Assembly: GCA_945786855.1 (NCBI GenBank)
Contig: CALZGI010000254.1
Span: forward strand, 1 to 58,066
DNA: 58,066 nt
Reading direction: 5' to 3'
Source of the DNA: Thermodesulfovibrionia bacterium
GTDB taxonomy: Bacteria; Nitrospirota; Thermodesulfovibrionia; UBA6902
Program-made: the position numbers and the translations under genes
Part shown: positions 30,205-31,336 of the stretch, piece after piece
How the letters are laid out: each line of letters begins with the position of its first letter
Position numbering within the stretch: the stretch's first letter is position 1
The notes under the pieces: generated by a model
What the model was told of the DNA's origin: nothing
What the model saw: the letters and a program-made list of their open reading frames with translations, nothing else
The model's database searches: none

Positions 30205-30672
30205 ATGAATCAAAAGGACGACACCTCACTCTTTAGAACGATCAGTACAGCATTCCTGATACTGATCATGCATGTGCTCCTGCTTGGAACCATAGGGGCC
30301 CTCATTCTTTTCTTCTATGGCGTTGTCAATCACATGGTCTGGATCGCAATCGGTGTTGCCTGCCTGTCCATAGGCGGCTACTTTTTCTTCAGACGTATAC
30401 GCTCAGACAGTAAGGTGCTGAAAGATATTGCGGGCGGCTCTTTCAAGGGAAAGACTGTTGAAGTGAGTTTTTTGGGAGGTGTAGCAAACTTCAAGATCAG
30501 CGATTCGCAGACCGGTCAGGAATTGAGTCAACTCGAATCAGATCAGCCCAGGCAGTTGGAAGCTCCTGATTCTGACCGCGCCACGACCCTTACTGAGCTT
30601 GCACGTCTCTATGAAAAAGACCTGATCAATAAGGACGAATTTAATAAAGCCAAAGACGAACTCCTTAAATAG
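30205..30672 (+). CDS. membrane protein with C-terminal SHOCT domain
   Basis: A 155-residue protein with two membrane helices (about 13-37 and 43-61) and a short linker with beta-character (GKTVEVSFLGGVANFKI). The C-terminal SHOCT motif (LTELARLYEKDLINKDEFNKAKDELL) is a short helical module of unknown but probably protein-binding function, common at the C-termini of small membrane proteins. AGAGGAG lies well upstream and AGGAAATGAAAG just before the ATG. No neighbouring gene suggests a pathway. Confidence 0.75.
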   Translation: MNQKDDTSLFRTISTAFLILIMHVLLLGTIGALILFFYGVVNHMVWIAIGVACLSIGGYFFFRRIRSDSKVLKDIAGGSFKGKTVEVSFLGGVANFKISDSQTGQELSQLESDQPRQLEAPDSDRATTLTELARLYEKDLINKDEFNKAKDELLK

Positions 30673-30730: not shown

Positions 30731-30776
30731 CCTGTCACGCTCCTGTCACAGTCATCATGTGCGCTGCACAGTGATG
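30731..30776. promoter_or_regulatory. candidate activator-binding region upstream of a sigma-54 promoter
   Basis: CCTGTCAC is repeated at 30731-30738 and 30742-30749 (11-base period, one helical turn). Next to it is an imperfect inverted repeat at 30753-30776 (CATCA...GTGC/GCAC...TGATG). Such repeats 40-85 bases upstream of the -24 element are where enhancer-binding proteins usually sit. Confidence 0.4.
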
Positions 30777-30813: not shown

Positions 30814-30830
30814 TGGCATTCTATTTGCAA
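30814..30830 (+). promoter_or_regulatory. sigma-54 (-24/-12) promoter
   Basis: TGGCATTCTATTTGCAA has full TGGCA and TTGCA elements with GG (30815) and GC (30827) exactly 12 bases apart. It lies 35 bases before the ATG of the 54-residue gene. Confidence 0.75.
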
Positions 30831-30864
30831 TATTGCGCATATATATCGCTCAAGGAGAATGCTG

Positions 30865-31029
30865 ATGGTATCTATAATTTCGAAGGCCTGTTTCATTATG
30901 TTGCTGCTCCTGATCTTTATTGGAATCTACTGTTTTTATTTCATGAATGACTCTGTTTATAAATTCATTCTTTGCCTTAAAAGAACAAATCATTTATATA
31001 AACCATATATCAAGAATAGCAGCGCGTAA
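30865..31029 (+). CDS. small membrane protein, 54 residues
   Basis: A 54-codon gene (ATG 30865 to TAA 31029). AAGGAGA lies eight bases before the start. One membrane helix runs from about residue 9 to 27 (CFIMLLLLIFIGIYCFYF), followed by a basic tail with KRTNHLYKPYIKNSSA. A full sigma-54 promoter lies 35 bases upstream, and the tetra-repeat gene starts 16 bases after the stop with its own AGGAGG, so the two form an operon. No homologous family is recognised. The regulatory context makes it unlikely to be a chance ORF. Confidence 0.65.
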   Translation: MVSIISKACFIMLLLLIFIGIYCFYFMNDSVYKFILCLKRTNHLYKPYIKNSSA

Positions 31030-31045
31030 TGAGCAGGAGGTTCAG

Positions 31046-31336
31046 ATGAATAGTAAATTATATCCAGCATACGGACACCCGAGGGGCTCCAGTAAATCAC
31101 CTTGGTACCGCATAGACAATAGCAGGATTTATTCCAGCTATGGACACCCTGACGGGAGAAGGCCGTCACCCCAATTCATTATTAAAGGTAGCAAGGTATA
31201 CACATCACATCTTCACCCAATGGGAATGAGCGGCAGTCCATGGTTCCAAATCAAGGATAACAAACTTTACCCGGCAACAGGGCATCCTGATGGATACTGC
31301 ACTCGTCCATGGTTTGTTATTGAGGAGGGCGAGTAA
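31046..31336 (+). CDS. four-fold 23-residue repeat protein
   Basis: A 96-residue protein from ATG 31046 (AGGAGG eight bases upstream). It consists of four consecutive units of exactly 23 residues, beginning at residues 4, 27, 50 and 73. Each has the pattern K-x-Y-x-x-x-x-HP-x-G-x-x-x-x-P-W/Q-F/Y-x-I. The His-Pro pairs fall at 11-12, 34-35, 57-58 and 80-81. Four equal short beta-rich repeats suggest a closed four-bladed mini-propeller or beta-flower shape, which is an inference. No signal peptide is seen. It is in an operon with the small membrane protein under a sigma-54 promoter. Function unknown. Confidence 0.75.
   Translation: MNSKLYPAYGHPRGSSKSPWYRIDNSRIYSSYGHPDGRRPSPQFIIKGSKVYTSHLHPMGMSGSPWFQIKDNKLYPATGHPDGYCTRPWFVIEEGE

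Follow-up and report, generated by a model that had tools for sequence, protein, structure and literature searches.

The window, by which we mean the whole 58,066-nucleotide stretch of Thermodesulfovibrionia DNA that was analyzed, carries a compact locus in which a sigma-54-type promoter precedes an ORF for a small membrane peptide and a gene for a protein composed of four repeats (Table 1). The promoter, both ORFs, and both ribosome-binding sites are present where a sequence-only reading of this DNA had placed them, and the layout supports the view that the locus is a sigma-54-driven operon of two unnamed genes. Upstream (positions 30205–30672) lies a membrane-protein gene whose product has a SHOCT-like C terminus, scoring below the Pfam cutoff, and a gene resembling it also precedes the corresponding operon in genome G014.

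Table 1. Features of the operon and its control region, numbered from the first nucleotide of the window.
Feature	Position	Strand	Basis or remark
Enhancer dyad 1, CTGTCACGCTCCTGTCACAG, probable activator site	30732..30751	+	Consensus in the taxonomic family about TGKCACA-N4-TGTGNCA
Enhancer dyad 2, TGTGCGCTGCACA	30758..30770	+	Consensus about TGTGCA-N-TGCACA; clearest in the window and G004
Sigma-54 -24/-12 promoter, TGGCATTCTATTTGC	30814..30828	+	Kept at 6 of 8 repeat-gene loci of the taxonomic family, plus two more genes
Dyad TATTTGC-N8-GCATAT	30822..30842	+	Overlaps both the -12 element and the expected start
Ribosome-binding site AAGGAG of the membrane ORF	30852..30857	+	Sequence; 7 nt upstream of the ORF
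54-codon ORF, single-span membrane peptide	30865..31029	+	Hydropathy; homologues in G014, G023, and G004
Ribosome-binding site AGGAGG of the repeat gene	31035..31040	+	Sequence; 5 nt upstream of the ORF
96-residue four-repeat protein, ring or mini-propeller-like	31046..31336	+	Encoded in 8 of 37 genomes of the taxonomic family; dN/dS; AlphaFold2
Repeat 1, KLYPAYGHPRGSSKSPWYRIDNS	31055..31123	+	
Repeat 2, RIYSSYGHPDGRRPSPQFIIKGS	31124..31192	+	
Repeat 3, KVYTSHLHPMGMSGSPWFQIKDN	31193..31261	+	
Repeat 4, KLYPATGHPDGYCTRPWFVIEEG	31262..31330	+	

The -24/-12 element (TGGCAYNNTAYTTGC) has GG at -24 and GC at -12 with the correct spacing and is conserved, in that six of the eight repeat-gene loci of the taxonomic family carry TGGCAY or CGGCAY, five further nucleotides, and TTGC upstream. 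Dyad 1 is centered 73 to 74 bp upstream of GGCA and dyad 2 about 51 bp upstream, which places the two ~22.5 bp apart. By using search patterns derived from these same loci, such that the scans report on specificity and co-location and not on independent discovery, we found the promoter followed by TGCGCA at exactly eight sites in the 37 genomes of the family with zero mismatches (a reversed-pattern control gave none), and a separate scan for the dyads recovered seven of these eight sites plus one match in G031. The latter was set down to chance, as it precedes an unrelated gene and no sigma-54 promoter was seen there by eye. The eight promoter sites, distributed over seven genomes, serve six repeat-gene loci, one membrane-peptide gene standing alone (G004), and, elsewhere in the genome that contains the window, a membrane ORF of 29 codons. 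Outside the family, a sample of 396 genomes of the phylum yielded the promoter pattern once, with a mismatch.

The site before the 29-codon ORF is a second complete promoter, with dyads, -24/-12 element, and start-site dyad (L055 2903–3056; contig C111, 5902 onward), and the ORF that it precedes encodes a single-span membrane peptide (MDTEYIIVFGIVILLMVSRFLMDFSEEDD). The same genome encodes one RpoN and about 30 sigma-54 activators. The sigma-54 promoter of the sequence-only reading gains from conservation in related genomes and from enhancer dyads that the reading had not mentioned. On these sequence grounds, a sigma-54 promoter with putative enhancer dyads is strongly supported, and the operon together with its sigma-54 control is well supported. 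The dyad words do not occur in the text of a paper describing the sigma-54 regulome of D. vulgaris (PMC4641369).

A third dyad (TAYTTGC-N8-GCATAT) spans the -12 and start region at all eight repeat-gene loci and was never reproduced in 300 shuffles per locus; it is possibly the operator of a second regulator. The repeat genes of G020 and G028 have a sigma-70-like promoter and no sigma-54 site, yet a counterpart of the start-region dyad lies upstream of both. Judged from these upstream regions, sigma-54 control is not universal among the repeat genes of the family.

Each of the four 23-residue units of the repeat protein has a His-Pro pair and a late aromatic residue (in PWY, PQF, PWF, and PWF). 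The units had been described as exact copies, and although their number, the His-Pro pair, and the late aromatic hold, exactness does not: pairwise identity is 39 to 52% for protein and 45 to 54% for DNA, and Tandem Repeats Finder reports no array at the gene. The 23-residue periodicity is nevertheless pronounced, with an offset score of 163, whereas 10,000 shuffles never exceeded 18. Values of dN/dS range from ~0.04 to 0.22 for the gene pairs where dS is computable, many others being saturated (G020 versus G028, for example, gives 0.08 at a dS of 1.15), and codon comparison thus indicates that the protein is under strong purifying selection. Since both ORFs are small and unannotated, they could in principle be chance reading frames or part of a noncoding region, but we give this next to no weight, because the conserved frame, the purifying selection, and the periodicity score already refute it for the repeat ORF.

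The repeat protein has no transmembrane stretch, and no secretion signal was seen. In searches of Pfam, NCBIfam, PHROGs, and PADLOC, its sequence gave no match that passed the threshold, and PDB sequences gave no significant one. A metal site formed by four histidines was considered and dropped, since 10 of the 52 units have Asn in place of His and a Vibrio version of the protein lacks this His. Within the taxonomic family, a repeat resembles its positional counterparts in other species (0.53) more closely than it resembles the other repeats of its own protein (0.40), which indicates that the four units diverged before those species did.

The distribution of the gene is patchy within the window's taxonomic family, where 8 of 37 genomes encode it and the other seven proteins are 47 to 65% identical to that of the window. 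No credible copy was found outside this family in the 396 sampled genomes of the phylum, where the single weak match (G047) is in the wrong frame. This match and weak ones in G056, G038, and G005 were inspected and rejected as chance similarities in other reading frames of unrelated genes. Relatives that are ~31 to 41% identical to the window protein do exist farther afield, and every intact member examined has four units. Translated searches recovered relatives of 31 to 34% identity on an Enterobacter mori plasmid and on several E. coli plasmids, whose units (for example, KIYRTVSHVDGWNGLPQYEIRGN) are 92 to 95% identical to one another within a protein. Of the 5,426 complete E. coli genomes searched, 14 have a match, and it is plasmid-borne in every case. 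Further relatives occur in Aeromonas veronii, Alcanivorax limicola, an uncultured gammaproteobacterium, a Desulfarculales MAG, an unclassified MAG, and two viral contigs, and the Alcanivorax and unclassified MAG proteins (for example, KIYPTVSHPDGWSGLPWYEIRGD) are intermediate between the two sequence styles. A relative on a Vibrio plasmid has four units of about 18 residues. In the copies from Cupriavidus and the matching copy from a Rhodocyclaceae MAG, the second unit is interrupted by the same in-frame stop (L034 5001–5252 and L040–L043); on this sequence evidence, these copies are probably decayed.

Most of the E. coli plasmid copies lie under no annotated feature, and the protein family is therefore probably undercounted. 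Annotation omits the gene on such plasmids (L033 2142–2648 and L113 1950–2222), and on one plasmid a hypothetical protein is annotated on the other strand of this stretch. GenBank phage searches returned no relative, nor did our first scans of genome contigs and viral contigs, and literature searches found no description. The repeat protein is not unique: the sequence comparisons place it in a wider family that the databases searched do not name.

AlphaFold2, given an alignment of only seven rows (the window protein and six relatives), returned a model of the window protein with a pLDDT of 89.2 and a pTM of 0.79, the five models spanning pLDDT values of 72 to 89. The relative from Aeromonas (about 32% identical) was predicted with the same strand order (pLDDT 91.8, pTM 0.80), although this prediction uses the same set of seven sequences and is not fully independent. 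DSSP assigns eight strands to the window model (residues 3–7, 21–24, 27–30, 42–47, 50–53, 67–70, 73–76, and 90–94), and in both models there are two strands per unit, with hairpins that join neighboring units. The first and last segments of the window model (residues 3–7 and 90–94) are both strands, as a closing pair needs, and this strand assignment is consistent with closure. That these two strands are free to pair and that the number of units is constant together suggest a closed ring with four-fold symmetry, built from two-stranded units.

A Foldseek search found no match at E ≤ 0.001 in the PDB or among viral models. The protein had earlier been called mini-propeller-like, and the arrangement of eight strands in hairpins fits this description, but neither sequence nor Foldseek comparison gives a significant match to a solved propeller. 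It would resemble beta-propellers in the predicted toroidal arrangement of its repeats, and it resembles them in the recent amplification of near-identical units, as seen in the E. coli plasmid members (PMC6805158, PMC9218822). However, a classical propeller blade consists of four antiparallel strands (PMC9218822), whereas each 23-residue unit contributes two, and we therefore do not file the repeat protein as a beta-propeller.

The choline-binding repeats of C-LytA consist of short hairpin units, about 20 residues long and rich in aromatic residues. Because the repeat protein shares these traits, and because C-LytA repeats are among its best Foldseek matches (nonsignificant, with E about 0.3), we considered whether it could instead be an open solenoid of the choline-binding or cell wall-binding type that recognizes a surface polymer. 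We regard this as very improbable. The C-LytA-type matches have E values above 0.2 and TM scores of about 0.2, there is no significant match to C-LytA in sequence or fold, no Pfam profile matches the protein, including CW_binding, and no secretion signal was seen. Moreover, C-LytA is an open solenoid of variable length, whereas the repeat protein always has four units, even in the version with 18-residue units, and this constancy is more readily explained by a closed ring than by an open solenoid.

Taken with its distribution, the predicted ring is compatible with a cross-phylum, unnamed family whose members always have four units of ~23 residues and would form a very small, propeller-like closed ring of two-stranded units (~93 residues), represented both by an old, diverged chromosomal gene under sigma-54 control and by freshly homogenized, near-identical copies on mobile elements. 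We put this composite description forward tentatively, at slightly less than even odds.

The membrane peptide has its hydropathy maximum (2.64) at residues 9 to 27 and a tail with a net charge of +4. Its homologues in G014, G023, and G004 are 24 to 34% identical to the window peptide, with E values of 7e-16 to 2e-25 against a profile built from these same four sequences. The 54-codon ORF is accordingly conserved in four genomes; its lack of conservation had been named as grounds for abandoning the proposed operon. A 50-codon membrane ORF also precedes the repeat gene of the Enterobacter plasmid, but a terminator-like hairpin lies between the two and the ORF looks unrelated by eye, and we do not count it as shared.

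It has been proposed that the peptide anchors the repeat protein, and in its strictest form this would mean an obligate pair in which the peptide tethers a mini-propeller to the inner membrane and neither works without the other. The genes are indeed adjacent and in one order behind one promoter in the window, G014, and G023, and the positive tail of the peptide, which is probably cytoplasmic, could bind the ring. However, these three loci are only half of the six promoter-borne repeat genes; in the others (G030, G008, and G018) the repeat gene directly follows the promoter with no membrane ORF, and in G004 the promoter and the membrane ORF occur with no repeat gene. The peptide also diverges faster (24–36% identity) than the ring does in the same genomes (54–65%). 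Since three genomes have both genes, three have only the ring gene behind the promoter, and one has only the peptide gene, the pair is co-regulated but not obligate. The membrane-anchor pairing thus stands as adjacency under a shared promoter in three genomes and finds no support as a general rule, and an obligate pair appears improbable.

The sigma-54 phage-shock regulon (pspABCDE and pspG; PMC2763126) offers a parallel, as it too combines sigma-54 and an enhancer-binding activator with small membrane proteins expressed from separate promoters. It differs in that no PspA-type gene was seen adjoining the window operon.

The distant relatives are found in settings of another kind. Among neighbors picked by eye are a SIR2-domain gene, an FRG-domain gene (PDC-S15), a PDC-S54 gene, and a RhuM gene (PDC-S05); some relatives reside on small plasmids of E. 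coli, several of which are mobilizable, and others among phage genes or on viral contigs. On a Vibrio cyclitrophicus plasmid (L035 3929–4165), a shortened, KYMSAS-type relative has a DUF6236 gene next to it and a RelBE-type toxin–antitoxin pair nearby. These neighborhoods suggest that the distant relatives may be accessory or defense-related cargo. They could also be taken to mean that the ring is itself a factor for phage defense, counter-defense, or mobile-element maintenance that was captured under sigma-54 control in the window's taxonomic family. We consider this unlikely, though less so than the open solenoid or the obligate pair, because no PADLOC model matches the window protein or its E. 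mori relative, islands of this sort hold accessory genes of many kinds, and in the window's taxonomic family the gene is chromosomal, with a nuoF-like neighbor at three loci (G014, G023, and G030).

The explanation that we favor, with a probability of roughly 0.5, is that the repeat protein is a stress-induced soluble ring that binds symmetrically and is encoded in a sigma-54-inducible operon, with membrane peptides that are co-regulated but independent. Under this proposal, sigma-54 and an enhancer-binding activator acting through the two dyads would induce the operon; the activator would sense a signal, probably a stress, and the ring would then be made in a burst. Four equivalent loops (H-P-x-G ... 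P-W/Q-Y/F) could contact the target, and the ring would act as a small, symmetric protein that binds or titrates it. The membrane peptide may be an effector in its own right within the same regulon and not a required anchor, and the relatives on plasmids, in phages, and on islands would carry the same ring as accessory cargo. We infer that a role as a stress-induced symmetric binding protein is the most likely one.

These findings delineate a compact sigma-54 regulon, comprising tiny membrane peptides and the predicted ring protein, for which the activator and the signal can now be sought. If our description of the protein family is true, it would add a very small fold with four-fold symmetry, and it would make the amplification of a repeat and its later divergence directly traceable, from units that are 92 to 95% identical in the plasmid proteins of E. 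mori and E. coli to units that are about 40% identical in the clade of the window.
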